DNA of 64,000 nt, from contig LSAX01000012.1 in NCBI GenBank assembly GCA_001557505.1, positions 62,001 to 126,000 on the forward strand, read 5' to 3'. The stretch comes from Reticulascus tulasneorum (lineage: Eukaryota; Ascomycota; Sordariomycetes; Glomerellales; Reticulascaceae). Numbering within the stretch: the stretch's first letter is position 1; each line of letters begins with the position of its first letter. A model generated the notes under the pieces. It was not told where the DNA came from and ran no database searches. It worked only from the letters and a program-made list of their open reading frames with translations. A program made the position numbers and the translations under genes. Shown one piece after another: positions 18,996 to 59,531 of this stretch.

Positions 18996-20440
18996 TCAAA
19001 TACCTTCCATCTCTCTTGTGGATAGATCTTGCAAAGCTGAGTTCAAGCTCAGAATTCTCTCACAAAGCTCTTTGATCATATGGTCCACCGTCTCTTCTTC
19101 ACAAATTCGTCGGTTGGCAACTATAGACACCCGCAGTCGAAGTCCGTCGGGCTCAGGAACTCCTGCTATATCCACGTCGTGAATCGGTGTCTCATCCAGA
19201 GTTCCCTTGCTCAGAGCAGTATCGCACTCGCTGGATTTTCCTGCTCGAGAATCTCGTGCTAAAGTCTCCAGCCGAATCCGCTGGTCTTGGATATGACTTT
19301 CAGGATGAATGTTAAAGTTTTGATATACCGTGCAACAACCGTAGTTAATAGTCGTGTCTGGCCAGTCTGTGCAGTTTTCTCTCACTTCATCGAATCCTAG
19401 AGTCTCAAAAGGCAAGCTGTTGATATACTGGTCTTGCACCTCCTGGAGTAATTCTCTCGGAGTGGCGGCCCCATCTATGGAAACTCGCACAGGCACATTA
19501 TTAGTGCAAGGGCCAACGATATGTTGGCAACCGACAGGCAAGCACTGGCGTCCAGACACGACTCGACCAAAAAGGACATCCCTTGATCTGGTCTCTTGTG
19601 CAAGCATTAGAGCGCAGGCAGTAGTAAACACTGTTGCCTGTGTGATGCCGCCTATATTGGCCTGAAAAGGAGCGTTAATGAGCTTTTCCACAAACCATGC
19701 ACCGTCAGCTCCTGGTTTTGGTTGACGGCCATGGCTAGCACTACCGACGACTGTCATCGAGGAATTCTGCAGAACAGAGCGCCAGAACTCGTAACCGTCT
19801 TTGCGGCTGTTAATCATATGTTGAACATATTGAGCAAATTTGGGAGGTGTTGGAAGCTGATTGCCGTTGTATAGAGTATGAAGTGAATGCACAATGTGCT
19901 CGAAACTCAAGCCATCATACAATGCATGAGACATTCGAAGCACTACTCGCACCGTCGATTCCCGATTCTTCAGAATGGCGATGCGTAGCAATGATTGTCC
20001 TAAACGAAGAGACTGTTGTCCATCCATACCCAATGATGGACGGGTCGCACTGGTGATATCTTCGTCGATTTCGACAACCTCAATCGGCACGTCAAGATGT
20101 TCCAGGACTACCTGGTAGAACGCACCGGCCGCCATGAAGAACACGGTCCTAAAGATGTCGTAATGTTGGACTAGAGCCGTGCAGGTTTTAACTAGCCGAG
20201 CACAATCCGAGTTAGGTGGGAAGTCTATGAAAAAGAGCGCCGGAGTGCGTGGGTGACCCGTCACTGGATCTTGGAGGAAAGTCTTTTGTGTCATTGTTGC
20301 AGGGTAGACGTCTAAGATTCTACCATGGCAGTCCTCAAGTCGCGGGGAGATTTCGCGGAGCACAAATGTCCGCGGATCTTCAAAAGGAAGTAGATGGAAT
20401 GGAGCGCTTTCTGGTGTTGGTAAAACTCCATTGCTTGCTG
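18996..20440 (-). other. NRPS1 terminal C domain (C_T), expected ring closure
   Basis: After T10 the protein ends with about 480 residues of C-type domain with SHALYDG (catalytic His kept) and [11 protein letters not shown]. There is no thioesterase or reductase domain. In fungal NRPSs with this ending (cyclosporin, enniatin types) the terminal C domain releases the peptide by cyclisation. With a hydroxy acid at position 1, ring closure would give a lactone. A relic of a similar domain lies at 63740-64000. Confidence 0.85.
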
Positions 20441-23400
20441 TGTGGGCCCGCAATTGATTAATCTGAATCTTGTTCGCGAGGTCGGCGGGCACCGGCTGGT
20501 CGAATATATCTTTGACGGACACTCGGACATCCAGCCGGCGGCTGAGTTGCCCTGCAAGCTTCGTGGCCAAGAGCGAGTGCCCCCCGAGATGAAAGAAATT
20601 GTCGGTAATGCCGACCTCGACGCCGAGGACATCGGCAAACTCCTCACACAACACGACTTCTATCTCGTTGCGTGGAGCCACGTGAGAAGACGCCACATTC
20701 CTTATTGGTGCAACCTGGGCCCTTCGAGCAAGTTCTCGCCGGTCGACCTTGCCGTTTGCGTTGACAGGCATCTGGTCTAGCACCACAATACGCGTCGGGA
20801 TCATGTACGGTGGGAGGAGAGCCCGCAGTCTTTCACGGATCTGTCCCTCGATCCGCCGGCCCTGTAGCCGCTGTAGCGGCCGGTTCGTGAAAGAGCCTAC
20901 TGGCCGGGTCTGGTCGTCAGTCGGGAATTTAATCATAACGCGCTGCCCACTCGCGGCAGGTGTATAGTGGTGGAAGACGGCATCAAGTGCGCCGTTCTGG
21001 GACTGCTGTCGCGCCCAACTGACCTCCACGCTGAAGCCTGTCTCTTCGCCTACTTGCAGGAGGTCGGTTGCGGACATCGACGCGCACCGATCCGCTCTAT
21101 GGTGGACAGCAGAGACCCAGGCCACCTCATCCATTGCGTCGTCATCGTCATCGTTTTCATCAAGCGACATCCTAACATGTCGCTCTACAATGGTCTTGCT
21201 ATAAGGGATGTTGCTGACGGAGACAGTCAAGGCGTCTGGCGAGCTCTGTAGAAGGCGGAGTAGGGCCTGACGGTCCATCTGAGAGGTTTTGAAATCGATC
21301 CAAGCATCTGCATCGATCTCATGCACAGCCTGCACTTGCTTGTCGGGATCGCCCACATGCACGACAGCAGCATACCTGTACGAGCTAAGCTCGTTCGTCG
21401 CTATCATTCTTTTGGGTAGAATCTCGACATGCTGGATTTGACCTGGGAGCCGGCCTGCTAGGCTCGTGAAAAAGGCCGGGTCGACTAGCAGCTCCTCTTC
21501 GCGCACTTCGATTTCTGCCATCTTATGTCGCACTCCATCTCTAGTCGCCTTTCTACCTAGCATATGTAAAGCCCTGGCCGCGAGGAAGTCTTTGTTAAGA
21601 GAGTGGGGTCGTATGTCACCAAAGAATAGACGCTTGACGCCTGGTAGTCGAGTGAGAGCGTCGACGACTTCGATCAAATACTCCGGCGTGGGGAAGTACT
21701 GGACCACGGAATTGACCACGACCAGGTCTGGATGGAGCCCATCTAGACGGCCTGCATCCGTGGCCGTGCCGACATGTACCTCAGCCCTGCCTGCGAGAGC
21801 AGGGATTGACTTAATGGCATCGTTGACGAAGGCAGCCGCGGATCTCGACGGTTCGACGCCAATGTAGCTCTGTAGGCCGTCGCCGAGATTGAATAGAACC
21901 ATACCAGTGCCGGTGCCTATCTCAAATACATGGACAGGGTCCTGACCGTTGAGGAGTGTCTGCATAGTGTCATCGAGCCACTCCTGCATCTCAGCCTTGT
22001 CAATCTCGCTCTTGTCATACATGGATGTCCAGCCAACGAAGTCGCTGCCGATGGCAGTCTGGCCAATGGTCTTGATATCTACATATGTGTTCGCTTCAAA
22101 GAAGTCTCCCCAACCTTCCACGTGACCGCTAGCCGCGTCCTGCTCGACGGATTCGTCGCCCCGGGCGGCGACAAAGCCAACCATTTCCGGTTCTTGACCG
22201 TCTGGCATCCGGACGACGACAGCTGCGCCGCTGACCGCATTGTGGCTGAGCATGGCATGCTCCACCTCGGCCGGTTCGATGCGGTGGCCTCGGATCTTGA
22301 TCTGCTGGTCCATGCGCCCAAAGAACTCGATCTGACCATCCTTCGGCCGATATCGTGCTCGGTCGCCCGTTCGGTATGCCCTCACGAGCTGGCCGTCGAT
22401 GGAAACCTGGACGAAGCGGTCTAGGTCCAGCGATGGATCGGTATACCCTCTGGCAAGCCCGTCTCCTGTGACGACAAGCTCTCCCATCACACCGACAGAG
22501 ACAAGCTGTTGACATGAGTCCATAATGTAAGCGCCAGAGTTGCTGATAGCATGACCAATAGGAACCCCATTGACGCTATCCTCACATACTGGGAAGCGGT
22601 AAACTGTACTGAAGGTTGTGTTTTCGGTCGGGCCGTAAACATGACAGAAATTGTACCGGACTAATTGTGCCGCGTTGAGGGCATCTCGAGGCCGCATTAT
22701 CTCTCCGCCGGCGAATAATATATCTAACTCACTGATTATCGAAGGTATTTCATCAAGGCGCTGTTTCAGTAAAGCTGTTGAAAAGAAAGCAGCTCTGATG
22801 CTATGTTTTGAAAAGGAACGGCCGAGAGCGATAGGGTCCAAAACCGTCATGTAGTCGATACACACCACTGTCCCGCCATTTAGAAGCGGCGTATAGATCT
22901 CCCATGTTGCCGCGTCAAAAGCGAGGTTAGCCTGATGAGCAACAGAAACAGCTGCTCCAGCCTGCGAGATCAAATTGGTCTCCCTGACCAGCCGCACGAT
23001 GCTGCGGTGCTCGACCATGACACCCTTCGGCCGGCCAGTCGATCCAGATGTAAACATCACGTACGCAAGGCTCATCGCCGCGGGCCGCAGGGCGGGGTCC
23101 GTAAAGTCAAATACATTATCATTGCCTAGCGTGTCGCTGATACGTACCAGCTCGACGTTTGGAAGTTGAATATCCGGAGCAGCCACATTGGCACCGAGAA
23201 GAATCAGTTTGTGCCCTGGTACGTTTGATAGAATCGCTTCGATACGAGCCACTGGAACATTGACGTCGAGCGGGAGATATGCTAGGTTCGCTTTGAGGAT
23301 GCCCAAAAAGGCAACAACCGTCTGACACGACCGCGGGGCCAGCACCCCGATCAGCGTCTCGGCCGGCATACGCTGCTGGCGCAGCCAGCTAGCAACCTCG

Positions 23401-26400
23401 TCGGATTGCCGGTCAAGGTCAGCATAAGTCAGCTGCTGCGACGAATCTATCACAGCTGTGGCGTCAGGACAGATGGCCACCTGGTCGCGGAAGACATCAA
23501 CCACGCTGGACTCGCGAGGGTACTCGGTCCTCTCGATATCGACGAGGCCCATGCTACGAAGCTCGGCCAGACCGTCGGTAAGCGGCAGGGACACAATTGG
23601 CGTCTGGGGATCCTCAAGACCCCGACGTAAGATTTCCTGGAACACAGACACCATGCCGTGGATAGTCTCAGGCTCAAACAGGTCTGCAGCAAAAAGTACA
23701 TTGCCCTCGAGTCTTCGAGTTTGTTGGAACAGGTGGAACTCCAAGTCGAAACGAGTGGATACGGTGGTTGGCATAAGCTCACCTACCAGATCTTCTAGCT
23801 GAATCTTGCCAAGATCTTCTTGAGAGTGTAAGGCAAACATGAGCTGCACCAGTGGGTTCCTCGACGTGTCTCTCGAGCCTGGTAAGAGGGCTGAAACGAC
23901 GCGCTCGAATGGGACATCCTGGTTGGCAAATGCGGCTGTCGCTGTTGACCGGGTCTGCAGAACTAGCCTCTCGAATGTATCGTCATCTTCGACGGTAATC
24001 CGCATACACTGAGTGTTAACGAAGAATCCAATCATGCTCTCCAGCTCTGGATGGTTTCGGTTGGCGATCGGCGTACCAACAGTCGCATCTTCCGCACCCG
24101 TGAGACGGTAGTGCGCTGCACGGAATGCCGCGAGTAAGACCACGAAGGATGTTACCTGGTGAGCTCGGCAGAATGCTCGGAGTCTCTCGTACACAGCGCC
24201 CTCGATGGTGAGCTGGACGACACCGGCCTTGCCGGACAGTACGGCCGGCCGGGGGAGATCGGTTAGAAGTTCGGCAGGAGCGCTGTCAGCGAGTTGCTTG
24301 GTCCAGTACTCGAGCTGCCGTTCGTGCTCGGCTACCTGATCGTCTTGCTTCTGCCACACGGCAAAGTCGCGGTACTGAATCGGGAGCGGGCTTTCCTGCG
24401 ACAACGGGTCCTGGCCGCGGAGTGCTATGGCATAGAACTTTCCTAGCTCTTGACATAAGATATCAATAGACCAGCCGTCGGAGATGATATGATGCATGAC
24501 AATGGAGAGGATGTGATCATCATTTCCCAATCGTAGCAACGAGACCCTCCATCCTGGCTCAGATGCCAGATCGAATGGAGTGGTCTGCTCAATCTGCAGC
24601 GACTGGATGTAGTTACTATCATCTGCGCCGGCCGAGACATCAATTATCCTCAGCTCCTTAGTGCGGCTCGTCTGGATTAGCTGCACGCCCACACCATCGT
24701 GCTCTTCGAATGTCGTTCGCAAAGTCTCGTGCCGCTGCTCCAGAGCAGCCAATGCGGCGGTTAGCGCATTGATGTGTAGCGACCCTCGCAGGCGCATGGC
24801 GAGCGGCATGAGATACCACGATGCACCGAGGTTGAACTGGTCTAAGAACCATAGGCGGCCCTGGGCAAACGACTGCTCGACAGGTCCGCGGTACGCTGTT
24901 GCGGGGATTGGGTTATGTGGGGTTGAGCCTCGGCGGATGATGGCTGCAAGATCGACGAGGACAGGGTGGTCAAAGACGTCTTTGACGGACACACGGGTAT
25001 CCAGTCGACGGCTGATGCGAGCAGCGAGCTTGGTGGCCATGAGGGAATGTCCTCCGAGATTGAAGAAGTTATCAGTGATGCCTATCTCGACGCCGAGGAC
25101 ATCAGCAAATTCCTCGCACAGTGAAACTTCGATCTCATTACGGGGGGCGACAACGGTGCGTGATTTTTGGTCTGTTGTCGCGCCCAATGTCAGCCGTGCC
25201 AGCGCCCGCCGGTCAACCTTGCCGTTCGTGTTCAGCGGCATCTGGTCCAACACAATAATCCGCGATGGAACCATGTACGACGGTAGAGTGGCTTGAAGCA
25301 CAGAGCGTAGATTTGCCTCAACATTCGGATCCAGCTGCGCCATCTTCACCTCATCGTCCTCCTCCTCTAGCTGGGCGGATTCTCTTGCATGGTCGGTTGA
25401 CATTTGATTAGCTCTTATCATACTCTGGTCCTCTACTACTGTGATAAAGCCAACAAGTTCGACATCTTGCTGTGTATCTCCGTCGCGCTTCAGTAAAACA
25501 ACAACATCTTTTACGGCGCTGTGTCTGACTAGGACGCGTTCTACTTCTGCGGGCTCGACACGGTGACCTCGAACCTTCACCTGATTGTCCATACGGCCAT
25601 AAAACTCTAGTTGACCGTCCGTCGGTCGGTATCGCACCCGGTCGCCTGTTCGAAAGGCCTTCATCGGCTTGTCATCGACTATGATCTGTACGAAACGGTC
25701 TTGGTCTCGGTCAGGGTCGGTATATCCTCGTGCGAGCCCGTCACCGGTCACGACCAGCTCGCCCATGACACCGAGAGAGACCAGACGCTGCTGCGGATCC
25801 ATGACATACACGCCCGAGTTGTTTATCACTCGACCAACAGGTACGCCGTTGGTACACATTACACCGGGGGTGATGTGAAAAGAGGTTGTCAGGATCGAGT
25901 TCTCGCTTGGCCCGTAGCCATTAAACACGGCTGTTCTCACCAGTTCTCTAGCCTTGGCTGCATCTTCGGCAGGGAACCGGTCTCCGAGGACATACAGTGC
26001 CTCAAGTTGGCCTACCGCCTGAGGGGCTTGGTCGAGGACTCTGGTCAGCAATGCAGGCGTAATCATCGCGACGCGGACATCCTCCTGCTTGAAGATATGT
26101 GTGAGGTGTACCGCATCTAACACTGTCATGGTGTCAATACAAACTAGCTTGTATCCGTTTAATAAGGCCATGCATATTTCAAATATTGACGGATCGAAAG
26201 CGAGGTTTGTCATGTGGGCGACAGCGCCATATGCGGGTCGTTGGGTGACGACGTTAACCAAGCTACGATGTGGGACCATAATTCCCTTTGGCACGCCGGT
26301 TGAACCCGACGTGAAGATGACATATGCCAGGCTTGTCGCAGAGGGTTGCTTTCCAACAGTAAGAGAATCAACTGCACCAGGGTTACCAAGCGTGTCGTCG

Positions 26401-29400
26401 ATACGTACAAGCTCCACGTCCGGAAGCTGAACATCCGGAGCAGCCACGTCGGCGCCAAGAAGAACTAACTTGCGCCCTGGTAGGTTTGACAGGATTGTTT
26501 TTATACGAGCTGCGGGAATATTGACGTCGAGCGGGAGATATGCTAGATTCGCTTTGAGGATACCAAAAAAGGCAACAACCGTTTGACACGACCGCAGGGC
26601 CAGCACCCCGATCAGCGTCTCGGCCGCCATGCGCTGCTGGCGCAGCCAGTTAGCAACCTCGTCGGATTGTCGGTCAAGCTCAGCATAAGTCAGCTGCTGC
26701 GACGAGTCTATCACAGCTGTGGCGTCAGGACAGGCGGTCACCTGGTCGCGGAAGACATCAACCACGCTGGACTCGCGAGGGTACTCGGTCCTCTCGATAT
26801 CAACAAGGCCCATGCTACGAAGCTCGGCCAGACCGTCGGTAAGCGGCAGGGACACAATTGGCGTCTGGGGATCCTCTAGACCCCGACGTAAGATTTCCTG
26901 GAACACAGACACCATGCCGTGGATAGTCTCAGGCTCAAACAGGTCTGTGGCAAAGAGTACGTTGCCCCCTAGTCTTCCGGTCTGCTGGGACAGGTGGAAC
27001 TCTAAGTCGAAACGGCTGGTCACTGCGGCTGGTATAGGCTCACCTACCAGATCGTCTAGCTGAATCTTGCCTAGATCTTCCTGAGAGTGCAGGGCAAACA
27101 TGAGCTGCACCAGTGGGTTCCTCGATGTGTCTCTCGAGCCTGGTAAGAGGGCTGAAACGACGCGCTCGAATGGGACATCCTGGTTGGCAAATGCGGCTGT
27201 CGCTGTTGACCGGGTCTGCAGAACTAGCCTCTCGAATGTATCGTCATCTTCGACGGTAATCCGCATACACTGAGTGTTAACGAAGAATCCAATCATGCTC
27301 TCCAGCTCTGGACGGTTTCGGTTGGCGATCGGCGTACCAACAGTCGCATCTTCCGCACCCGTCCAACGGTAGTGCGCTGCACGGAATGCCGCGAGTAAGA
27401 CCACGAAGGACGTTACCTGGTGAGCTCGGCAGAATGCTCGGAGTCTCTCGTACACAGAACCGTCGATGGTGAGCTGCACAACACCAGCCTTGCCAGACAG
27501 TACGGCCGGTCGCGGCTGGTCGGTTAGAAGTTCGGCAGGAGCGCTGTCGGCAAGTTGCTTGGTCCAGTACTCGAGCTGCCGTTCGTGCTCGGCTACCTGA
27601 TCGTCTTGCTTCTGCCACACGGCAAAGTCGCGGTACTGGATCGGGAGCGGACTCATTTGCGACAGCGGATCCTGGCCTCGGAGTGCTACGGCATAGAACT
27701 TTCCCAGCTCTTGGCAAAGGATATCGATGGACCAGCCGTCGGAGATGATATGATGCATGACAATGGAGAGGATGTGATCATCATTTCCCAATCGTAGTAA
27801 CGAGACCCTCCATCCTGGCTCAGATGCCAGATCGAATGGAGTGGTCTGCTCAATCTGCAGCGACTGGATGTAGTTACTATCATCTGCGCCGGCCGAGACA
27901 TCAATTATCCTCAGCTCCTTAGTGCGGCTCGTCTGGATTAGCTGCACGCCTACACCATCCTGCTCTTGGAATGTCGTTCGCAAAGTCTCGTGCCGCTGCT
28001 CTAGAGCAGCCAGTGCGGCGGTTAGCGCATTGATGTGTAGCGACCCTCGCAGACGCATGGCGAGCGGCATGAGATACCACGATGCACCGAGGTTGAGCTG
28101 GTCTAAGAACCATAGGCGGCCCTGGGCAAACGACTGCTCGACAGGTCCGCGGTACGCTGTTGGGGGGATTGGGTTATGTGGGGTCGAGCCTCGGCGGATG
28201 ATGGCTGCAAGATCGACGAGGACAGGGTGGTCAAAGACGTCTTTGACGGACACACGGGTATCCAGTCGACGGCTGATGCGAGCAGCGAGCTTGGTGGCCA
28301 TGAGGGAATGTCCTCCGAGATTGAAGAAGTTATCAGTGATGCCTATCTCGACGCCGAGGACATCAACAAATTCCTCGCACAACACGACTTCTACCTCGTT
28401 GCGTGGAGCCACGCGAGAAGACGATACATTCCTTTTTGGCGCAACCTGGGCCCATCGAGCAAGTTCTCGCCGGTCGACCTTGCCGTTTGCGTTGACAGGC
28501 ATCTGGTCTAGCACCACGATACGCGTCGGGATCATAAATGGTGGAAGCAATGCCTGCAGACTAATTCGAACCTCGCTCTCTGTCTGCGCTGCGAATCTTT
28601 CTTCTCGACGTTTTCGGTGCCCAGTTTGGTCTAGGTTGACCCAAGCCTGATTGACAGATCCGTCGCCCCGTGCGGCAACAAAACCGACCATTTCCGGCTC
28701 TTGACTCTCTTGGCCCTCCGGCATCCGGACGACCACAGCTGCATCGCGGACCGCATCGTGACTGAGCATGGCATTCTCCACCTCGGCGGGCTCGATGCGG
28801 TGGCCTCGGATCTTGATCTGCCGGTCCATGCGCCCAAAGAACTCGATCTGGCCATCCTTCGGCCGATATCGCGCGCGGTCGCCCGTCCTGTATGCCCTCA
28901 CGAGCTGGCCGTCGATGGAGACCTGAACGAAGCGGTCTAGGTCCTGCGATGGATCAGTGTACCCTCTAGCAAGCCCGTCTCCTGTGACGACAAGCTCTCC
29001 CACTACTCCAGAAGATACGAGTTGCTGGCGTGAGTCCATAATGTAAGCGCCGGAATTCCTGACAGCGCGACCGATAGGGACACCATTTGCATGTTTCTCA
29101 TTCTCCCCGACATTATATAAAGTGCTAAGAATCCCGTTCTCAGTGGGTCCGTATGCGTTATAGACATCAGCTCCGACCAGAGCTTTCGCTTCGATTGCAT
29201 CGCGGCTATCGAATCGGTCTCCGGCTGCCAAAAGAACATGTAGGGAGCTAAGCATAGCAGGATTGTCAACTAAGCACTGTTTTAGTAAGGCTGGGGGAAG
29301 TGTGGCCATGTGGATCTTTTCTCGTTCAAATACATCCGCAAGAGCTTTGCTGTCCAAGGTGGTAAAATAGTTAATACAAACGAGTGTTCCCCCATTCAAT

Positions 29401-47400: not shown

Positions 47401-50400
47401 AGTCTCTCGTACACAGAGCCCTCAATGGTGAGCTGCACGACACCGGCCTTGCCAGACAGTATGGCCGGCCGGGGGAGATCGTTCAGAAGTTCGGCAGGAG
47501 CGCTATCGGTGAGCTGCTTGGTCCAGTACTCGAGCTGCCGTTCGTGCTCGGCTACCTGATCGTCTTGCTTTTGCCACACGGCAAAGTCGCGATACTGAAT
47601 CGGGAGTGGGCTCACCTGTGACAACGGGTCCTGGCCTCGGAGTGTTGCGGCATAGAATTGGCTGAGCTCTCGGCATAGGATATCAACGGACCAGCCATCA
47701 GAGATGATGTGGTGCATGACAATGGAGAGGATGTGATCATCATCTCCAAATCGTAGCAGTGATACCCTCCATCCTGGCTCAGACGCCAGATCGAAAGGAG
47801 TGGTCTGTTCATTCTGTAGCAACTGGATGTATCTGCTATCATCCGCGCCGGCCGATACATCAATCACTCTTAACTCCTCAGTGCGGCTCGTCTGGATGAC
47901 CTGCACGCCTATACCATCATGCTCTTCGAATGTCGTTCGCAGAGTCTCATGCCGCTGCTCCAGAGTAGCCAGTGCAACGGCGAGCGCGTCGATGTGGAGC
48001 GACCCGCGCAGGCGCACGGCGAGCGGCATGAGGTACCACGAGGCACCGAGGTTGAACTGGTCTAGGAACCATAGGCGGCCCTGAGCAAACGACTGCTCGA
48101 CGGGTCCGTGGTACGCTGTCGGAAGGATTGCACTATGTGGAGTTGAGGTTCGGCTGATGATGGCTGCGAGATCGACAAGGACAGGGTTGTCGAAGAGATC
48201 TTTAACGGACACGCGGGTATCCAGTCGACGGCTGATGCGAGCAGCGAGCTTGGTGGCCATGAGGGAGTGGCCTCCAAGATGGAAGAAGTTATCATTGATG
48301 CCTATCTCGACACCGAGGACATCAGCAAATTCCTCGCACAGCGAAACTTCGATCTCGTTCCGTGGGGCGACAACGGTGCGTGATTCTTGGTCTGTTGGTG
48401 CGCTCAATGTCAACCGTGCCAGCGCCCGCCGGTCAACCTTGCCGTTTGCATTGACTGGCATCTGGTCTACCACCACGATACGCGTCGGGATCATGTATGG
48501 TGGAAGCAAGGTCTGCAAACGAATTTGTATCTCGTTTTCTGTCTGCGCCGCGAAGCCTTTTTCTCGACTTCTTCGATGCTCCAATCCGTCTTGGCTGACC
48601 CAAGCATGGTTGATAGATTCATCGCTCCGGGCGGCTACAAAGCCTACCATTTCCGGCTCTTGCCTTTCTCGACCCTCTGGCATCCGGACGACGACAGCTG
48701 CGTCGCTGACTGCATTGTGGCTGAGCATGGCATGCTCCACCTCGGCCGGCTCGATGCGGTGGCCTCGGATTTTGATCTGCTGGTCCATACGTCCAAAGAA
48801 CTCGATCTGGCCATCCTTCGGCCGGTATCGTGCTCGGTCGCCCGTCCTATATGCCCTCACAAGCTGGCCATCAATAGAAACTTGGACGAAGCGGTTCAGG
48901 TCCAGCGATGGATCGGTGTACCCTCTGGCAAGCCCATCTCCGGTGACGACAAGCTCTCCCATCACACCGACAGAAACAAGCTGTTGAGATGAGTCCAAGA
49001 TGTAGGCACCAGAGTTGCTGATGGCACGGCCGATAGGAACCCCATTAACAAATAGATCATGCTCCTCAATGGCATAAATAGTACTGATGGCCGCATTCTC
49101 GGTAGGGCCATACACATTGTAGACGGCACTCTGGACAAGCGCTCGTGCCTCGGTCGCATCACGACTGTCTAGCCGATCTCCACCGGTGTAAAGTACTTCT
49201 AAGGCCCCGATCGTAGCAGGTATGCTGGCTAAGCATTGTTTGAGCAAAGCAGGGAGAAGTGTGGCCACACGGATTTGTTCTTGTTCGAACACTGCCTCGA
49301 GAGCCTTACTGTCCAAGGCTGTAAAGTAGTCGATACAGATCACCGTTCCACCGTTTAGTAGCGCGGAATAGATCTCCCACGTCGAGGCATCAAAGGCAAT
49401 ACTTGAAAGATGCGCTATGCGAGGTGCGCGTGGCAGCCTAGATACGACATTACTCTCCTTCACGAGCCTTAAGATGCTACGATGCTCGGCCATAACACCC
49501 TTTGGCACTCCAGTTGAACCCGACGTGAAGATGACGTATGCCAGGCTTGTCGCAGAAGGTTGCTTTCCGACAGTAAGAGAATCAGAATCAACTGCACCAG
49601 GGTTACGAAGCATGTCGTCGATACGCACAAGCTCCACGTCCGGAAGCTGAACGTCCGGAGCAGCCGCGTCGGCGCCAAGAAGAACCAACTTGCGCCCTGA
49701 TACCATTGAAAGGATTGCTTTTATACGAGCTGCGGGAACATTGATGTCGAGCGGGAGATACGCTAGGTTCGCTTTGAGGATGCCCAAAAAGGCAACAACT
49801 GTCTGACACGACCGCGGCGCCAGCACCCCGACCAGTGTCTCGGCAGCCATGCGCTGCTGGCGCAGCCAGCTAGCAACCTCGTCGGATTGTCGGTCCAGCT
49901 GAGTGTAGGTCAGCTGCTGCGACGAGTCCTTCACAGCTGTGGCGCCAGGACAGGCGCCTGCCTGCTCACGAAACGCATCCACCACGCTAGACTCGCGTGG
50001 GTACCCAGTTCGCTCGATATCAAGTAGGCCCATGCTACGAAGCTCGGCCAGATCGTCGGTCAGCGGCAAGGATACGATTGGCGTTTGAGGCTCCTCAAGA
50101 CCCCGTCGTAAGATTTCCTGGAAGACAGACACCATGCCGCGGATGGTGGTAGACTCGAACAGGTCTGTGGAAAAGAGCACACTACCGCTCATCCTTCCCA
50201 CTTCCTGGAATAAGTGGAACTCAACGTCGAAGCGAGTTGATACAGTAGGGATCATATGCTCGCCTACCAGGCCTGATAACTGGATTTTACCGAGATCCTC
50301 CTGAGAGTGGACTGCGAACATAAGCTGAACCAGCGGATTCCGTGATATATCTCTCGAGCCGGGTAAGAGGGCCGAAACGACACGCTCGAACGGGACATCC

Positions 50401-53400
50401 TGGTTTGCAAATGCGGCCGTTGCCGTTGACCGGGTCTGCCGCACCAATCCCTCAAATGTATCGCCATCACCAATCGTAATCCGCATACACTGAGTGTTGA
50501 CGAAGGAGCCGATCATATTTTCCAACTCTGGACGGTTTCGGTTGGCTATTGGCGTACCAACAGTCGCGTCCTCCGCACCTGTGAGACGGTAGTGCGCTGC
50601 ACGGAACACCGCGAGCAGAACCACGAAGGATGTTACCTGGTGAGCCCGGCAGAATGCTCGGAGTCTCTCGTACACAGAGCCCTCGATGGTGAGCTGCACG
50701 ACACCGGCCTTGCCAGACAGTATGGCCGGCCGGGGGAGATCTTTCAGAAGTTCGGCAGGGGCGCTATCGGTGAGCTGCTTGGTCCAGTACTCGAGCTGCC
50801 GTTCGTGCTCGGCTACCTGATCGTCTTGCTTTTGCCACACGGCAAAGTCGCGATACTGAATCGGGAGTGGGCTCACCTGCGACAACGGGTCCTGGCCTCG
50901 GAGTGTTGCTGCGTAGAATTGGCTGAGCTCTCGGCAAAGAATATCGATAGACCAGCCGTCAGAAATAATATGGTGCATGACAATGGAGAGGATGTGATCA
51001 TCATTTCCCAATCGTAGCAATGATACCCTCCATCCTGGCTCAGACGCCAGATCGAAAGGAGTGGTCTGCTCATTCTGTAATAACTGGATATAGCTACTGT
51101 CATCCGCGCCGGCCGATACATCAATCACTCTTAACTCCTCAGTGCGGCTCGTCTGGACGACCTGCACGCCTACACCATCCTGCTCTTGGAATGTCGTTCG
51201 CATAGTCTCGTGCCGCTGCTCCAGAGTAGCCAGTGCAACGGCGAGCGCGTCGATGTGGAGCGACCCGCGCAGACGCACGGCGAGCGGCATGAGGTACCAC
51301 GATGCACCGAGGTTGAACTGGTCTAGAAACCATAGGCGGCCCTGAGCAAACGACTGCTCGACGGGTCCGTGGTACGTTGTCGGAGGGATTGAATTATGTG
51401 GGGTTGAGCCTCGGCGTATAATAGCTGCGAGATCGACCAGGACAGGGTTGTCGAAGAGATCTTTGACGGACACACGGGTATCCAGTCGACGGCTGATGCG
51501 AGCAGCGAGCTTGGTGGCCATGAGGGAGTGGCCTCCAAGATTGAAGAAGTTATCAGTGATGCTTATCTCGACGCCGAGCACGTCGGCGAACTCCTCACAC
51601 AGCGAAACTTCGATCTCGTTCCGTGGGGCGACAACGGTGCGTGATTCTCGGTTTGTTGGTGCGCTCAATGTCAACCGTGCTAGCACCCGCCGGTCAACCT
51701 TGCCGTTCGTGTTCAGCGGCATCTGGTCCAACACAATAATCCGCGATGGAACCATGTACGACGGTAGAGTGGCTTGAAGCACAGAGCGTAGATTTGCCTC
51801 CACATTCGGATCCAACTGCGCCATCTTCACCTCATCATCTTCTTCCTCCTCTAGCTGGGCGGATTCTCTTGCGTGGTCGGTTAGCTTTTGGTTAGCTCTT
51901 ATCATACTCTGGTCCTCTACTACTGTGATAAAGCCAACAAGTTCGACATCCTGCTGTGTATCTCCGTGGCGCTTCAATAAAACAACAGCATCTTTTACGG
52001 CGTTGTGTCTGACTAGGACGCGTTCTATTTCTGCGGGCTCGACACGGTGACCTCGAACCTTCACCTGATTGTCCATACGGCCATAAAACTCTAGTTGACC
52101 GTCCGTCGGTCGGTATCGCACCCGGTCGCCTGTTCGAAAGGCCTTCATCGGCTTGTCATCGACTATGATCTGTACGAAACGGTCTTGGTCTCGGTCAGGG
52201 TCGGTATATCCTCGTGCGAGCCCGTCACCGGTCACGACCAGCTCGCCCATGACACCGAGAGAGACCAGACGCTGCTGCGGATCCATGACATACACGCCCG
52301 AGTTGTTTATCACTCGACCAACAGGTACGCCGTTGGTACACATTACACCGGGGGTGATGTGAAAAGAGGTTGTCAGGATCGAGTTCTCGCTTGGCCCGTA
52401 GCCATTAAACACGGCTGTTCTCACCAGTTCTCTAGCCTTGGCTGCATCTTCGGCAGGGAACCGGTCTCCGAGGACATACAGTGCCTCAAGTTGGCCTACC
52501 GCCTGAGGGGCTTGGTCGAGGACTCTGGTCAGCAATGCAGGCGTAATCATCGCGACGCGGATATCCTCCTGCTTGAAGATATACGTGAGGTGTACTCCGT
52601 CTAACACTGTCATGGTGTCAATACAAACTAGCTTGTATCCATTTAGTAATGCCATGCATATTTCAAATATTGACGGATCGAAAGCGAGGTTTGTCATGTG
52701 GGCGACAGCGCCATATGCGGGTCGTTGGGTGACGACGTTAACCAAGCTACGATGTGGGACCATAATTCCCTTTGGCACGCCGGTTGAGCCCGACGTGAAG
52801 ATGACATATGCCAGGCTTGTCGCAGAGGGTTGCTTTCCGACAGTAAGAGAATCAACTGCACCAGGGTTTCCAAGCGTGTCGTCGATACGTACAAGCTCCA
52901 TGTCCGGAAGTTGAACATCCGGAGCAGCCACGTCGGCACCGAGAAGAACCAACTTGCGCCCAGGTAGGCTTGAAAGGATTGTTTTTATACGAGCTGCGGG
53001 AACATTGATGTCGAGCGGGAGATACGCTAGGTTCGCTTTGAGGATGCCCAAAAAGGCAACAACCGTCTGACACGACCGCGGCGCCAGCACCCCGACCAGT
53101 GTCTCGGCCGCCATACGCTGCTGGCGCAGCCAGCTAGCAACCTCGTCAGATTTTTGGTCCAGCTGAGCGTATGTCAGCTGCTGCGACGAGTCTGTCACAG
53201 CTGCGGCGTTAGGACAGGCTGCCACCTGGTCGCGGAAGACATCTACCACGCTAGACTCGCGAGGGTACTCAATCCTGTCAATGTCAACGAGGCCCATATT
53301 ACGAAGCTTCGCCACACCATCGGTCAGTGGCAGGGACACGATTGGCGCTTGAGGCTCCTCAAGACCTCGTCGTAAAGTCTCCTGGAAGACAGCGACCATA

Positions 53401-56400
53401 CCATCGATGGTGGTGGCCTCGAACAGGTCTGTGGAGAATAGCACTCTGCCTACCAGCCTTTCAGCCTCCTGGAACAGGTGGAATTCAACATCAAACCTGG
53501 TGGTCGCGACGCTAGGCAACAGCTCCCCTGCCAGACCCTTCAACTGGATTTTGCCAAGGTCTTGTTGAGAGTGCAAGGCGAACATGAGCTGTACCAGCGG
53601 GTTCCTCGACGTGTCCCTTGAGCCGGGGAGAAGGCAGGATACAATGCGCTCGAAAGGCACATCTTGGTTGGCGAATGCCGCTGCTGTCGTAGACCGAGTC
53701 TGCCGTACCAATCCCTCAAATGTGTCGTCTTCCCCAACGATAATACGCATACACTGGGTGTTAACAAAGAATCCAATCATATTTTCCAACTCTGGACGGT
53801 TTCGGTTGGCTATTGGCGTACCGACAGTCGCGTCTTCTGCACCCGTGAGGCGGTAGTGTGCTGCACGGAACGCCGCGAGCAGCACCGCGAACGATGTTAC
53901 TTGATGAGCTCGGCAGAATGCTCGGAGGTTCTCATACACCAAGCCTTCGATGGTGAGCTGCACGACACCCGCTTGGCTGGAGAGTACGGCCGGCCGGGGT
54001 AGGTCTGTTAGAAATTCGGCCGGCGAGCTGTCGGTGAGCTGCTTGGTCCAGTACTCGAGCTGCCGTTCGTGCTCGGCAACTTGATCGTCTTGCTTTTGCC
54101 ACACGGCAAAGTCGCGGTACTGGATCGGGAGTGGGCTCACCTGTGACAACGGGTCCTGGCCTCGGAGTGTTGCGGCATAGAATTGGTCGAGCTCTCGGCA
54201 TAGGATATCGACGGACCAGCCGTCAGAGATGATGTGGTGCATGACAATGGAGAGGATGTGATCATCATCTCCCAGTCGTAGCAATGATACCCTCCATCCT
54301 GGCTCAGACGCCAGATCGAAAGGAGTGGTCTGTTCATTCTGTAGCAACTGGATGTATCTGCTATCATCCGCGCCGGCCGATACATCAATCACTCTTAACT
54401 CCTCAGTGCGGCTCGTCTGGATGACCTGCACGCCTACACCATCCTGCTCTTGGAATGTCGTTCGCAGAGTCTCGTGCCGCTGCTCCAGAGCAGCCAGTGC
54501 AACGGCGAGCGCATTGATATGGAGCGACCCGCGCAGGCGCACGGCGAGCGGCATCAGATACCACGAGGCACCAAGGTTGAACTGGTCTAGGAACCACAAG
54601 CGGCCCTGGGCAAACGACTGCTCGACGGGTCCGTGGTATCTTGTCTGAGCAATTGGATTATGTGGAGTCGACAATCCTTGGATTGTAGCTGCCAGGCCGG
54701 TGAGCGTAGGGTTCTGCAAGATGTCTGCTATTTCTAGCGCTATCCCAAGCGACCTCGCCATATTCACCAGTTTGATCGCCGCAATAGAGTCTCCGCCCAA
54801 TTCGAAAAAGCTTGCACCGTGGCTGTTGGAGCTGGGATCGATATTTAAACTTCGAAACCATAGTTGTTGCAGCGTGACCTCTGCACTGGCTGTTGGAGCG
54901 AACCTCTCTTCGGGCCAGGATCTTCCATTCACATTCATTTCATCCAGCAGCGTAGTGCCGATGGATCGAAGTCTTCTTCGGTCTGTCTTTCCGGTTGTAG
55001 TGGTTGGGAGATGCTTCATACGAATAAAGTGCGATGGAATGCAATGCTGAGGAATAACCTCTTGCAGTTTTATCTTTATCCGCTTGGCAGCACTAGTCTC
55101 TAAAATGCAGACATCCATTGCCGACGTAGTATGGGGAGTGTCCTCTCCATCGTAGAACGGACCTATCAGAAACGCAAGCAAGGTTGTGCTGTTGGACGCG
55201 TTGGATCTCCTGACAGCTTCAACCACGGGCATCACGTGGCTAGGCAATTGTTGTCGCAAATGACTTTCTACGTCGCCGAGCTCCACCCGTTGTCCTCGGA
55301 TTTTGACTTGCGAATCTCGGCGCCCGAGGTACACAACAGTACCATCGGATCTGTAACGGACGAGATCTCCGGTCCTGTAGAATCTGACAGAGCCGAGCTG
55401 CTGGCTCGCGGGATACCAAGCAGGGGCGGTAACAAGGAAGGGGGATTTCTGCTTCGGGGGAGCAACAACATATCCCCGTGCGATTCCAGGACTTTCAATA
55501 ACCAACTCGCCAACGCTGCCGATCGGTGCTAATCGATCAGGGTTAATAGGGTCGGTAATCCAGAAGCGGGCGCCTACAGCGCCGCCAATGTTATTCAACT
55601 CAGCCGTGTCTTGTTTGACTTCAGTAACACTGCACACACTTGAGCTTTCACTCTGGCCGTAAACGTATATGAGCTGAACCTTTGAGGCCCAGTTGTCTCT
55701 CATTTCTGCTAACATCGGTTCTCCCCCTAAAACCAGTGTTTGAAGTCCAAGCACACTTTCTGGCTGAATAGCCCCAATAAACGAAGGAGTGAACACGGCC
55801 CAATTAACTCCTACGCGGTTGATGAAGCCTGGAACATCGTTCATCCGGTCGTTCTCGGAAGGAATGCAGACGCAGCCGCCATGCATTAGGGTTGCCAAGA
55901 TTTCTACCAGACACGCACCAAAAGCATAAGAGGCAAATTGAAGAGAGCGTGTATGTTTGTTAATTCCCATTCTAGGACCAAACTCAAGGCAGCATGATGT
56001 GAATCCTCGATGCTCAATCATACTGCCTTTTGGTTCCCCTGTGCTTCCAGAAGTGAAGAGAATATACGCTAGATCTTGCGGCTTCACAATAGTTCTGAAA
56101 TGATCTTCATCATGCGGCAGTGACTGAAAAAGTTCATCATCCACCGCAATGCACTGGGGTACGACAGTACATATAGCCTCATATTGAACTTTGGAAGCGA
56201 GAGCAACTGTTGCGGATGTTTGCTCACAGATCTTGGCGATCCTCGCTGCCGGGTAAGCTGGGTCAATGAGCGTGAACGCCCGGCCAGTTTTGAGCACAGC
56301 GAGCATCGCAGCGACGATCCATTTCGATTTCTCGAAGCATAATGGTACCACCCGCCCTAATTCCAAATCATGTGTTTGAATATACCCCGCAAGGCGCGAG

Positions 56401-57956
56401 GACAGACGATCCAGCTCAGCATATGTCCATCCTCCATCCCAAGCAAGCACAGCGGGTTCATATGGCGTATCAGCTGCCCTCTCCTCTATCACATCGTGGA
56501 TGCACAACTCACTTGCCCGGAGTAGTCCCGAGTTCCACTTCTGGATCTCTGCCTGATCCTCTTGCGTGACGACATCGAGTTCTCGTATAGGCAGTTTAAC
56601 CACATGGCTCTGGAATTGCTGTATTAAATAGCCGAGTTGCTTCAGGAAACGAGCCATTTGACGGTCATCAGTTAAGCTCGGGTCATATCGTGCGACAAGT
56701 AATGCTGACGTATCGGCCATCTGGCAGTCGAGTAAAAGGGCACGATCCGTATACGGTATAAATTTATCGGATTTTGTATCGGCCCGATGAAGCCTAGAAC
56801 TATGCGCTTGTGGCACATTATTCGCAGTGACTAGTAGGACGGTTTCAAATCCACAAGCGGCAGACCCAAAGTCTCCAGCACGGCGGATGCTATGAAGACC
56901 GGCCTGCTCAAACTCACGTACAGCCATATCTTGGGCACTGATCGCTTGCATAAGATCTAATCCGGATTGGCGAGGATCGCAAACCACACGTGTGGGCACG
57001 ATGGTTCGCGTTGGGCCATCGAGTGGTTGCTCTAGACCATTGAATAAGGGGGGCCGTTCCACCACAACGCCAAAAAGTGCCTCCGAAGTATGGGTGTATC
57101 GAGCAAGGAGCACTGCGAGCGCTGCTTGACAAATGATCGTGTTGTTCCATACCTGCTGGGCCAAGCCTGGATAGGAAATGCGATGTTCTGCGTGCGCATC
57201 GGGGCGGGGCACAGTCAGGGGGGACGGTAGAGCAGGAAATGCAGAGGCGATCAGACCGTCAAAGTGCTGCTGCCAAAACCTGGCTATCCGTTCTGGATCT
57301 TTGGCGAGGGAGTTCACTATTAACTCTGTCCCCAGAGAGTGTTGGATTTCTCCGCCGTGGTAGACTTTGAGCACCTTTACAAGGATGCGCTCCTGGAAAA
57401 CGGTGTCCACTAGCGCGTGGCTGAATGTCCAGATGAGTAGTCTTTGCTTTGTGTTGGGGTTCTCGTAGACGGCATATCGGTTGCACTGGCTCCTAGTCAC
57501 AGCGGCTGCGGCCTCTTCCTCTTCGGCGACTGCCTCGTTCATGTCCAGACCACTCAAGTACACCCACTTAAAGCTGTCCGACAGTATGACTTGTAAATGG
57601 TCCCCGGATTCCAACGTAAACATGCAAGTCCTCAGGGCCGGAGTCTGGCGCACAACCTCCTTCCAAGCGGCGGCCAAACGCTCGATGTCGACATTCTTCG
57701 GGATCTCGTAGACGACATGGCCGACAGCACGCCGCCTATCCTTGGCAGCGTGCTCCATGACGTCACGTTGGAACGGCGTACATGGCAAGATGTTCTCGAT
57801 CATACTTTGGTCTAAGCCAAGATGGCGACTGGCTTGCATGGAAAGAATGTTACGGTTGTTGTTGTTGTTGTTGTTCTTGCGGTTGTGGTTAGCAACTCCA
57901 GTCGTGAAGGATGCTGTAGCAGCTCGGACTGAGAGCTTGTTGTTAGTTGATGCCAT
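18996..57956 (-). CDS. NRPS1: ten-module, four-N-methyltransferase cyclic (depsi)peptide synthetase
   Basis: A single open frame of 12,986 residues with no intron. I start it at the ATG 57956-57954; the frame extends 10 codons upstream but without an ATG. Order: degenerate C0, A1, T1, then nine C-A-T modules, with N-methyltransferase domains in modules 4, 5, 7 and 10, and a terminal C domain in place of a thioesterase. This is the layout of fungal cyclosporin, aureobasidin and enniatin-type enzymes. Internal C domains keep HHIISDG, carriers keep LGGHS (T1 LGGDS), and MT domains keep the SAM motif FEIGTGTG. There is no epimerase. Each A pocket can be read, and modules 2/6/9 and 3/4/7 form two near-identical groups. 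I predict a cyclic ten-unit product with one hydroxy acid and four N-methyl amino acids; the structure itself is not known. The N-terminus carries a seven-Asn run near residue 30. The gene is divergent from a D-2-hydroxyacid dehydrogenase. Confidence 0.96.
20441..24891 (-). other. NRPS1 module 10 (C-A-MT-T), substrate group e, N-methylating
   Basis: The A core ([22 protein letters not shown]; code D-A-W-F-F-G-V-T-F-K) resembles module 5. The region after [14 protein letters not shown] and the methyltransferase (about 22125-20955) match modules 4 and 7. This is the pattern of an A-core exchange inside a duplicated module. The carrier differs from the others: [19 protein letters not shown]. Confidence 0.84.
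24892..28152 (-). other. NRPS1 module 9 (C-A-T), substrate group a
   Basis: A core of the IMVPHRS/FDPSIFE type, code D-P-F-M-Y-L-G-I-L-K. It is a near-copy of module 6 (10,986 bp away) and module 2 (26,484 bp away). No methyltransferase. The carrier is NFFNLGGHS. Confidence 0.85.
28153..31406 (-). other. NRPS1 module 8 (C-A-T), substrate group d
   Basis: A: VMCEHRN, FDVSVWE, YGPTENG; code D-V-W-T-L-A-A-I-L-K, unique within NRPS1 but close to module 2 of NRPS2. No methyltransferase; the linker is [17 protein letters not shown]. The flanking C and T sequences are of the common type, so only the A core differs from the neighbouring modules. Confidence 0.84.
31407..35877 (-). other. NRPS1 module 7 (C-A-MT-T), substrate group b, N-methylating
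   Basis: A core as in modules 3 and 4 (VMAEHRS, FDASTWE, YGPTENA). The methyltransferase at about 33115-31940 keeps [10 protein letters not shown]. The stretch 31787-32237 appears identical to 20801-21251 of module 10. The carrier is NFFHLGGHS, followed by KGIFDHP instead of KDVFDHP. Confidence 0.85.
35878..39136 (-). other. NRPS1 module 6 (C-A-T), substrate group a
   Basis: The A core is nearly identical to modules 2 and 9 (IMVPHRS, FDPSIFE; code D-P-F-M-Y-L-G-I-L-K). No methyltransferase. It sits exactly 10,986 bp from the matching part of module 9, the same spacing as between the MT domains of modules 7 and 10, so modules 6-7 and 9-10 look like copies of one block. Confidence 0.85.
39137..43618 (-). 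other. NRPS1 module 5 (C-A-MT-T), substrate group c, most divergent module
   Basis: The C domain has [17 protein letters not shown] in place of the [16 protein letters not shown] shared by the other modules. A: VMIEHRG, FDAATWE, code D-A-W-L-L-S-S-T-F-K. The A5 core motif is SCGHTEN rather than NAYGPTEN. The methyltransferase (about 40835-39640) starts [11 protein letters not shown] and keeps [10 protein letters not shown], but it differs from the near-identical MT domains of modules 4, 7 and 10. Codon choice looks GC-richer here. This module seems to have escaped the homogenisation seen elsewhere in the protein. Confidence 0.83.
43619..48112 (-). other. NRPS1 module 4 (C-A-MT-T), substrate group b, N-methylating
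   Basis: The A core is as in modules 3 and 7 (code D-A-W-T-Y-G-V-A-I-K). The methyltransferase (about 45330-44150) starts at [11 protein letters not shown], with SAM motif [10 protein letters not shown] and NSVVQYFP. Its T domain is unlike the other carriers outside [24 protein letters not shown] and an unusual linker before the next C domain. This suggests that the T4-C5 junction is older or was acquired separately. Confidence 0.85.
48113..51372 (-). other. NRPS1 module 3 (C-A-T), substrate group b, not methylated
   Basis: The A core (VMAEHRS, FDASTWE, YGPTENA) has code D-A-W-T-Y-G-V-A-I-K and is nearly identical to modules 4 and 7. Unlike those two it has no methyltransferase: the linker [15 protein letters not shown] joins A8 directly to A10. 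The same residue is therefore expected unmethylated here and N-methylated at positions 4 and 7. The carrier is NFFHLGGHS. Confidence 0.85.
51373..54638 (-). other. NRPS1 module 2 (C-A-T), substrate group a
   Basis: C starts at [48 protein letters not shown]. Code D-P-F-M-Y-L-G-I-L-K. No methyltransferase; the A8-A10 linker is acidic (QLEEEEDDE). Its A core is nearly identical to those of modules 6 and 9: 52084-52564 matches 25600-26080 base for base as far as I can follow. The carrier is NFFNLGGHS. Confidence 0.85.
54639..57956 (-). other. NRPS1 module 1 (C0-A1-T1), putative alpha-hydroxy-acid loading
   Basis: C0 starts at [11 protein letters not shown]. It has SHALVDT instead of HHxxxDG, so peptide-bond formation is not expected. 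A1: FTSGSTG near 56050, [29 protein letters not shown]. Pocket code by my alignment to GrsA: G-A-V-F-V-G-V-S-V-K. Asp235 is replaced by Gly, as in the D-hydroxyisovalerate pocket of enniatin-type synthetases (recalled code GALMIVGSIK). T1 reads FFELGGDS and is the only LGGDS carrier in the protein. The D-2-hydroxyacid dehydrogenase next door fits this substrate class. An aryl or keto acid cannot be excluded. Confidence 0.75.
57853..57880. repeat. GTT microsatellite coding a poly-Asn run
   Basis: About seven GTT/GTTG units, read on the minus strand as AAC codons, encode the KNNNNNNNR run in the NRPS1 N-terminus. NRPS2 lacks it, so the run is probably a replication-slippage product in a flexible leader. 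Confidence 0.75.
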
Positions 57957-58370: not shown

Positions 58371-59531
58371 ATGGCTCCTCCCATCTTAAGGTCGACAGGG
58401 AGACTGATGCTACGATTTGCCAGTTATCGAACCGTAGGTGAGAGACTTACACTTATGCAAAAACGCCAGCGTCACACCACTGTGACAAAACATCACATCG
58501 TCGTTTTGGACAATTATTTCCCACACTATCTTCCTCTCGACTTCGACCACACTATTGAATATCACACCTCCACCCGACCTGACCAGCTTCCTTCTCGCAT
58601 TAAAGACTCCACCATTATTATCGTCTCCGACACGCAAATTACCCGTGAGAGCCTTCTTGCTGCTAAAAGACTTCAACTCGTGGCCACCAATAGCACCGGC
58701 ACCGATACTATTGACAAGGCCACTCTCAGTGAGCTTGGTATCGCACTGTGTAATGTTCCTGCGCAAAGCACTGAATCGGTAACCGAACACGCCTTGGCCC
58801 TGTATTATGGACTGCGGAGGAACTTGCTGGAGATGCACAGGGTGACAGTAGAAGGTAAAGCGTGGACATTGTCTGGAGATACGCAAGCCAGACTGCAGCG
58901 TATTGGAAAGCCGTCTCGAACGAATGCCGAGGAGATAATGGTCGTATTTGGGTATGGAGCTTTAGGTATGCCTCATTAGCGGAGTTTAACGAAACCGAAC
59001 CGCGAGCTAATGAAAAGTGGAAAAGGCAAGAAAATCGAATCCTTAGGTAAAGCTCTAGGCATGCAAGTCCTCATCGCCGAACGCAAAGAGGCGTTGGAGA
59101 CCCGTCCCGGCCGTATGCCTTTCTTACAATGCCTGAAACCAGGTACTCTCTTCATTATCACAGCACCTCTCACCGAAACCACCCGTGGTATGATAGGTGC
59201 CTCAGAAATCGCTGCTATGGATCCCACTTCCCTCCTGATTAATGTTGGCCGCGGCGGCATTATCGACGAGCTCGCTCTCGTAAACGCGCTTAGGCAGGGC
59301 CTTATCGGCGGCGCTGCGACAGACGTGTATGAAGAGGAACCAGCTACCAAAGTTAACTCACCGTTGCTTGATCCGTCGATCCCGAATTTGTTGCTTTCGC
59401 CGCATATAGCATGGTACTCAAAGCGGACGATGGAAAACACGCTGCGTACCCAGAAGGCTAACCTAGAAGGGTTCGTTTCAGGGAGAATGATCAATATTGT
59501 GATTCCTCCCAGCAAGAACAAGAAAGACTAA
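58371..59531 (+). CDS. D-2-hydroxyacid dehydrogenase, likely supplier of the hydroxy-acid unit
   Basis: Two exons, 58371-58965 and 59026-59531; the 60-bp intron (58966-59025) runs GTATGC to AAG with a GCTAATG branch-like site. Joining restores the nucleotide-binding motif GYGALGKKIESLGKALG. The product is 366 residues. Catalytic residues of the D-isomer-specific family are present: Arg in NVGRGGIIDE, Glu in YEEEP, His in LSPHIAWYS. The family reduces 2-keto acids to D-2-hydroxy acids with NAD(P)H. The first 35 or so residues are rich in Arg and Ser and nearly free of acidic residues, like a mitochondrial leader; a later Met (residue 25) is an alternative start. Being divergent from NRPS1, whose first A domain lacks the amino-binding Asp, it most likely makes the D-2-hydroxy acid starter, for example from 2-ketoisovalerate or 2-ketoisocaproate. 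Confidence 0.88.

Follow-up and report, generated by a model that had tools for sequence, protein, structure and literature searches.

A ten-module N-methylating peptide synthetase of Reticulascus tulasneorum, its predicted ten-unit peptolide and its six paralogues on one contig

Introduction

What is made by a fungal peptide synthetase encoded in a single 39-kb frame, and how far can the product be read from its modules? The question is raised by a 64,000-nucleotide stretch (the window) of the Reticulascus tulasneorum genome (GenBank assembly GCA_001557505.1; 42.8 Mb in 35 contigs), which corresponds to positions 62001–126000 of contig LSAX01000012.1, hereafter C4. The gene in question, G2, has six giant homologues nearby, and all seven synthetase genes, G1 to G7, are located within 0.55 Mb of this contig (17.8k–563.6k). 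We consider it highly likely that G2 encodes a linear-reading (non-iterative) synthetase of the cyclosporin type for a ten-unit cyclic peptolide, and that it belongs to an array of seven paralogues. It also seems reasonably likely that C4 carries the gene for the peptolide SDZ 214-103 (G5) and, with its six sisters, forms a peptolide-diversifying island. Such an island would specify as many as seven products differing in ring size or pattern (8, 10, 10, 11, 14, 16 and 18 units), the largest from an 18-module chain of ~24,600 residues, and would evolve by homogenization of condensation (C) and methyltransferase (MT) domains around exchangeable cores of the adenylation (A) domains.

Open reading frame and domain organization of G2

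G2 is a single open frame on the minus strand (18996–57986) of 12,996 codons counted from a TTG; its first ATG is codon 11, at position 57956, from which 12,986 codons follow. The longest opposite-strand open reading frame listed within it spans 276 residues, and the G2 frame is thus not due to chance. The original prediction had placed an intronless 39-kb gene here, ending at the same ATG, with ten A domains, four MT domains, a terminal C domain, and neither a thioesterase nor an epimerase. This anatomy was borne out by motif scans, Pfam, homology and a structural match to TqaA, with "intronless" being a property of the predicted frame.

The motif scans identified ten A3 motifs, ten carrier motifs and four MT motifs, the latter in modules 4, 5, 7 and 10 and each located between the A8 and A10 motifs, such that the MT is inserted in the A domain. 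The eleven condensation-type motifs comprise one starter motif (SHALVDTVF) in the altered condensation domain that opens module 1, nine internal motifs (HHIISDGWS) and one terminal motif (SHALYDGLS). The same scans of G2 found no GxSxG motif of a thioesterase and no extra epimerase-like copy. Pfam scans, run on three overlapping pieces, returned the Condensation, AMP-binding, AMP-binding_C, PP-binding and methyltransferase families, along with two unrelated matches below cut-off (Viral_P18 and Terminase-T7_RNaseH-like). The methyltransferase match passes the curated cut-off of 30 in the middle piece (50.2 bits) and lies just below it in the other two (27.1 and 26.0 bits); the MT count is therefore taken from the motifs and from a homology search, which independently recovered all four domains. 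The best solved-structure match to the C-terminal 497 residues is TqaA (E 3.7e-32). The terminal condensation domain is predicted to be of the ring-closing type, and ring closure itself would be its function. G2 is one uninterrupted multi-module chain of a nonribosomal peptide synthetase (NRPS) of the cyclosporin/KK-1 type.

Substrate codes and predicted product

Nine pocket residues were read from each A domain, position 235 being given in what we take to be GrsA numbering. The first A domain of G2 (A1) has a glycine at 235 in place of the aspartate that binds the amino group. Glycine instead of this first aspartate is a feature of hydroxy-acid A domains. Four proteins of the destruxin or leualacin type show it too, in their module 2 (GANLIGATV), which presumably loads hydroxyisocaproate. 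Among the extension modules, which we label by residues a to e, one code is shared by modules 2, 6 and 9 (DPFMYLGIL) and another by modules 3, 4 and 7 (DAWTYGVAI). The pocket residues give exactly the letters expected from the original prediction, OH1-a-b-Me(b)-Me(c)-a-Me(b)-d-a-Me(e). The cyclosporin-type logic, ten-unit ring, four N-methyl groups and hydroxy-acid starter proposed with it remain probable, with Gly235 and a neighboring dehydrogenase gene pointing to the starter and a terminal domain predicted to be of the ring-closing type. Thus, the product of G2 is probably cyclic, combining one hydroxy acid with nine amino acids of which four carry an N-methyl group; we infer its exact residues, the activity of the enzyme and the closure of the ring.

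A D-2-hydroxyacid dehydrogenase gene sits divergently, just upstream of G2, and is a candidate source of the starter. A second copy lies beside sister G1 and is 80% identical to that of the window over residues 11–181; a remnant is located at C4 194.7k. In the proposed mechanism, the dehydrogenase would convert a 2-keto acid to a D-α-hydroxy acid, which A1 would load. The nine following modules would add amino acids in the order a-b-b-c-a-b-d-a-e, with the built-in MT domains methylating the nitrogen at units 4, 5, 7 and 10. Finally, at the terminal condensation domain, the starter hydroxyl would attack the last thioester and release the ten-unit cyclic peptolide.

Table 1. Features of the window and of the synthetase array (window positions, unless C4 is given)
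Feature	Position	Strand	Description
G2	18996..57956	-	Ten-module N-methylating peptide synthetase: starter C-like, A1, carrier; nine C-A(-MT)-carrier; terminal C
G2 module 1	54741..57806	-	Starter C-like, A1 GAVVVGVSV (Gly at 235, read as hydroxy acid), carrier
G2 module 2	51480..54740	-	Residue a, DPFMYLGIL, unmethylated
G2 module 3	48219..51479	-	Residue b, DAWTYGVAI, unmethylated
G2 module 4	43731..48218	-	Residue b, N-methylated, MT ~44067-45464
G2 module 5	39246..43730	-	Residue c, DAWLLSSTF, N-methylated, MT ~39585-40967
G2 module 6	35985..39245	-	Residue a, unmethylated
G2 module 7	31515..35984	-	Residue b, N-methylated, MT ~31851-33230
G2 module 8	28260..31514	-	Residue d, DVWTLAAIL, unmethylated
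G2 module 9	24999..28259	-	Residue a, unmethylated
G2 module 10	20529..24998	-	Residue e, DAWFFGVTF, N-methylated, MT ~20865-22244
G2 terminal condensation domain	19017..20429	-	Ring-closing type (predicted), SHALYDGLS, TqaA best PDB match
D-2-hydroxyacid dehydrogenase	58371..59528	+	PF00389 then PF02826, two open stretches, presumed intron
2-Isopropylmalate synthase paralogue	61307..62521	+	PF00682 and PF22615, candidate precursor supply
FAD-dependent amine-oxidase-type gene, first part	13036..13908	-	PF01266 positions 2-210 of 353
G1	C4 17.8-70.5k		14 modules, 5 MT
G2 (window gene)	C4 81.0-120.0k		10 modules, 4 MT
G3	C4 130.7-172.0k		10 modules, 6 MT
G4	C4 222.1-255.5k		8 modules, 5 MT
G5	C4 311.3-355.7k		11 modules, 6 MT
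G6	C4 400.8-469.0k		16 modules, 12 MT
G7	C4 489.9-563.6k		18 modules, 11 MT

An array of seven synthetase genes

Ordered domain hits give the array a total of 87 modules and 49 MT domains; the A-domain search scored 83 of 213 candidates. The six sisters are 66–77% identical to G2 in the starter module and 64–68% in the terminal domain. None of the seven starters has an aspartate at position 235, which is occupied by glycine in six and by alanine in G6. The module spacings are regular beyond the first interval and, in all seven genes, the presence of an MT accounts for every long one, so no module seems to have been missed. G7 has the longest open frame of the array (24,626 codons, 18 modules); we know of no NRPS larger than ~24,600 residues.

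Not all members of the array are intact, as G4 is broken into two open frames and the terminal-domain hit of G1 contains one stop. The G2 frame could likewise be intact and the gene nevertheless silent or redundant, yielding no product under normal conditions. Relics of the G2 family on C4 indicate that genes here do decay. However, G2 is uninterrupted over 39 kb, its domains contain the expected motifs and the dehydrogenase gene adjoins it, and we regard a silent G2 as unlikely.

Sister gene G5 and the peptolide SDZ 214-103

SDZ 214-103 is a cyclosporin peptolide of Cylindrotrichum, which we take to be [Thr2, Leu5, D-Hiv8, Leu10]cyclosporin, with its units following the order of those in cyclosporin. 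G5 consists of 11 modules with MT domains at 2, 4, 5, 7, 8 and 10, the places expected from this structure if synthesis begins at unit 8. This MT pattern was seen first, and leucine at modules 2, 3, 8, 9 and 10, valine at 4, glycine at 7 and alanine at 11 were predicted before the A cores were read. The codes of modules 2, 3, 8, 9 and 10 are DAWLYGAVI, DAWLYGAVI, DAWLFGAVM, DAWLLGAVL and DAWLYGAVI, respectively. Their common form, which occurs in none of the other G5 modules, would be a leucine code (DAWL.GAV.). Modules 4, 5, 6, 7 and 11 read DAWMFAAIL, DAWTYGGVI, DAWMYSAVF, DIQMFVAIQ and DVWMFAAIL, so that the valine, glycine and alanine assignments are tentative. The code of module 11 is similar to DVWIYAAVI, that of the MeAla module of destruxin, where the readings of reference modules, here and below, follow the presumed residue orders of destruxin and leualacin. 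The core of module 9 shares 83% identity with the module 4 core and 70–74% with the cores of the other leucine modules, yet it has a Leu-like code, as would be the case for a Leu5 module derived from a Val5 module. Modules 9 and 4 are also kin in the tree of A cores (see below), although the fork is weak (80/38).

The G5 starter is of the hydroxy-acid type, as in G2, with 68% identity between the two starter regions. Additionally, a polyketide synthase ketosynthase (KS) domain is located at C4:357122-357927, 1.4 kb past the last G5 domain hit, and this synthase may make the Bmt unit. In an RPC2 tree of 27 rows (the query plus 26 named proteins chosen from 120 listed; the relatives listed for RPC2 reach 89% at best), the genome is placed beside Colletotrichum, Verticillium and Sodiomyces (support 98/94), and Cylindrotrichum belongs to the same order, the Glomerellales. 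A polyketide synthase gene is described within the cyclosporin cluster (PMC3688495), Cylindrotrichum is described as making a single cyclosporin-related compound, such compounds often being novel (PMC3688495), and SDZ 214-103 is named in a reference title (PMC2613160). Thus, by module count, MT places, starter type, leucine places, polyketide synthase and order, G5 appears to be the SDZ 214-103 synthetase, and this fit suggests that our way of reading the codes of the family works.

The same fit bears on the G2 starter, which might instead be some other unit without an α-amino group, or the ring might be closed elsewhere. Loss of Asp235 by itself says only that no α-amino group is gripped at this position. 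The D-2-hydroxyacid dehydrogenase adjoining G2 and the fit of G5, which has the same starter type, to a D-Hiv peptolide argue for a hydroxy acid, and such alternatives are in our judgment quite improbable.

Two more KS matches were found on C4. One (476.4-478.0k) lies between G6 and G7 and, by eye, is much like the neighbor of G5; the other is at 671.7-672.5k.

Residue identity in G2

The A-core tree, calibrated on G5, contained 78 extension-module cores and seven reference cores; two of the 87 array modules (module 4 of G1 and of G4) have no readable code. The cores of residue a form a separate clade of seven rows (100/100) across G1, G2, G3 and G7. Residue a is unmethylated at all seven of its occurrences in the array (chance 0.005, or 0.04 counting one per gene) and is perhaps an imino acid, with pipecolate or proline considered. 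The core of residue b is near the G5 module read as Bmt and is also similar to the leualacin module read as N-Me-Phe, a weak hint that b is large. Residue c clusters with G5 module 6 (read as threonine) and three others (98/94). For residue d, the grouping is loose (81/92) and takes in modules 4, 9 and 11 of G5 together with a single module of G4, a weak hint that d is close to the residues read as Ala, Val and Leu5. The core of residue e falls into a group with G3, G6 and G7 modules (100/98), and there is a weak hint of a branched aliphatic side chain. The code of e, DAWFFGVTF, is accompanied by an MT at all seven places where it occurs, so uniform runs such as that of residue a also arise by module duplication. 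Six rows, including G2 modules 5, 8 and 10, have long branches, and their positions in the tree are thus unsure.

Evolution of the modules

The modules of G2 were compared by DNA identity in 100-codon bins, the A core corresponding to columns 700–800. The condensation stretches of modules 2–4 and 6–10 are 73–100% identical and the MT stretches of modules 4, 7 and 10 are 94–100% identical. A cores are 94–99% identical for the same letter and 49–66% for different letters. Module 5 stands apart with only 60–61% identity to all other extension modules. A broken synthetase at C4:822.5-825.2k contains an MT with 69% identity to the module 5 MT, compared to 49% for those of modules 4 and 7; the MT of module 5 thus belongs to another lineage.

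Across G1–G4, with starters and domains at piece borders left out, 30 of 35 A, 14 of 16 MT and 29 of 30 C domains have their nearest relative within their own gene, whereas 2000 label shuffles gave at most 24 A, 10 MT and 17 C domains. The genes therefore seem to homogenize internally, although module duplication without conversion would give a partly similar pattern. The array seems to diversify through module duplication, within-gene homogenization of C and MT domains, and exchange of A cores. It shows synthetase module recombination in one place, with C and MT domains kept constant and A cores exchanged, a scheme that engineers of cyclic peptides try to copy.

Near-identical repeats may also be misassembled, in which case the number or order of the G2 modules would be distorted and the ten-unit pattern would be partly an artefact. 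In places, DNA identity between modules rises to 97–100% within the C and MT stretches, so an assembly could miscount the modules, and the two frames of G4 and the stop in G1 could be explained in the same way. However, every pair of G2 modules still differs, the spacings described above are regular in all seven genes, and a frame of 13,000 codons survives. Moreover, G5 reads as the 11-unit product that we presume for it, and an assembly of 42.8 Mb into 35 contigs points to long reads. We therefore consider a serious assembly error very improbable and retain ten modules for G2.

Assessment of the assignments

Besides the similarity of the modules, several points weigh against our interpretation of G2 and G5. 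The reading of G2 comes from sequence, and the reference structure used for SDZ 214-103 is the one that we presume. Equal codes had been foreseen for the five leucine modules of G5, but only three share one code, from which each of the remaining two departs at two positions. The presumed valine code of G5 module 4 (DAWMFAAIL) is unlike that of the destruxin module read as MeVal (DAWFYGGTF), which resembles residue e more; this mismatch renders the residue calls insecure. The cyclosporin cluster holds a cyclophilin gene (PMC3688495). Such a gene is not known to be required, and cyclophilin (PF00160) gave 17 matches here, none of them on C4. Finally, of a pyrroline-5-carboxylate (P5C) reductase the window contains just a fragment. 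G5, with a seemingly known product, and its six relatives represent a calibrated set in which one known structure helps to decode the others, and G2 predicts one concrete compound class.

Neighboring genes and further synthetase sequences

The 2-isopropylmalate synthase paralogue of the window has its best identities, among the 120 proteins listed, at 76% (partial cover) and 73% over the full query. The regulatory, leucine-feedback domain PF08502 had no match in the stretch 61307-62521. A second paralogue at C4:808.6-809.8k is 83% identical, with one stop within the matched stretch. The tie of the amine-oxidase-type gene to the G2 product is uncertain. The P5C reductase fragment (10828-11127, plus strand) covers positions 4–48 of 105 of the dimerization domain, of which a fuller copy is found at C4:192.9k.

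Between G1 and G2, the window contains a decayed condensation-adenylation remnant of the G2 family (14569-16504, plus strand), 41–57% identical in pieces to G2 modules 1–2, 4 and 10. Further broken synthetase remnants are located at C4:6.7-7.7k, 125.9-126.4k, 777k and 815-825k, and at 196k of contig C34. Two other giant frames on C4, at 637-667k and 693-726k (10,248 and 11,406 residues), have starter-type matches of only 30–33% and thus represent a different synthetase type.

Comparison with known systems

The homologue search with G2 listed 120 of the 446 proteins found, the longest of 7,997 residues; the database searched may thus lack longer relatives. Among the matches listed, the best to the first 5000 residues of G2 are P0001 (60% identity) and P0002 from Clonostachys solani (59%). 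Both share with G2 a hydroxy-acid-type first A domain, and both have two MT modules; unlike G2, they have six A domains in ~7,900 residues. PF02558 (ketopantoate-reductase-like) is listed in the same chain as their hydroxy-acid-type A domain, and could represent a built-in maker of the hydroxy acid.

The aureobasidin synthetase Aba1 has nine modules and comes from another class of fungi. It resembles G2 in the hydroxy-acid start and N-methylated units predicted for the latter, and in near-identical A domains within one gene. The synthetase of SDZ 214-103, with 11 modules for the structure that we presume, differs from G2, which has 10 modules, four MT domains and other residues. Module duplication has been mentioned for Aba1 (PMC3688495). 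It is also evident in the cyclosporin synthetase SimA of Tolypocladium, a single 45.8-kb locus of 11 modules (PMC3688495) with 7 MT domains (PMC2613160), of which no complete homologue was found according to the 2013 paper (PMC3688495). SimA is similar to G2 as a single-locus gene with MT domains in many modules and evidence of module duplication. In contrast to G2, it has 11 modules and 7 MT domains, it starts with D-Ala, for which its cluster includes a racemase, and its host belongs to the Hypocreales rather than the Glomerellales.

Ten-unit products offer the closest comparison. The KK-1 synthetase Kk1B of Curvularia clavata is encoded by 39,125 bp and has ten modules with MT domains at 3, 5, 6, 7 and 9 (PMC10512319). 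Its cluster includes a D-2-hydroxyacid dehydrogenase (kk1H) and a P5C reductase, as well as an O-methyltransferase, an ABC transporter, a type II thioesterase and a bZIP factor (PMC10512319). Sch 217048 and the phaeosphamides are Hmp-Phe-Pro-Gly-MeVal-MeGln-Ile-Pip-Val-MeGlu or close variants (PMC9604837), with N-methyls at 5, 6 and 10 counted from Hmp (PMC9604837, PMC11822689). In clavariopsins, nine amino acids are joined by a single hydroxy acid (PMC10301978). Kk1B shares with G2 its ten modules, 39-kb gene and a D-2-hydroxyacid dehydrogenase in the cluster, as well as the hydroxy-acid start and N-methylated units predicted for G2, and KK-1 is a closer documented match than the clavariopsins.

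G2 could therefore be viewed as the orthologue of a known ten-unit depsipeptide synthetase, of the KK-1, clavariopsin or Sch 217048 type, that makes the known compound. The size, module number and kind of neighboring gene of Kk1B speak for this possibility, as does the composition of the clavariopsins, likewise nine amino acids and one hydroxy acid (PMC10301978). For KK-1 and Sch 217048, the methyl places argue otherwise, in a comparison by published description. We rejected G2 as the KK-1 synthetase since its MT domains are at 4, 5, 7 and 10 instead of 3, 5, 6, 7 and 9, and as the Sch 217048/phaeosphamide synthetase since the N-methyls of those peptides are at 5, 6 and 10. We accordingly give orthology with a known product the slightest of chances. 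Judged by its modules, G2 belongs to the cyclosporin/KK-1 kind of synthetase, with a predicted methyl pattern that differs from those of KK-1 and Sch 217048.

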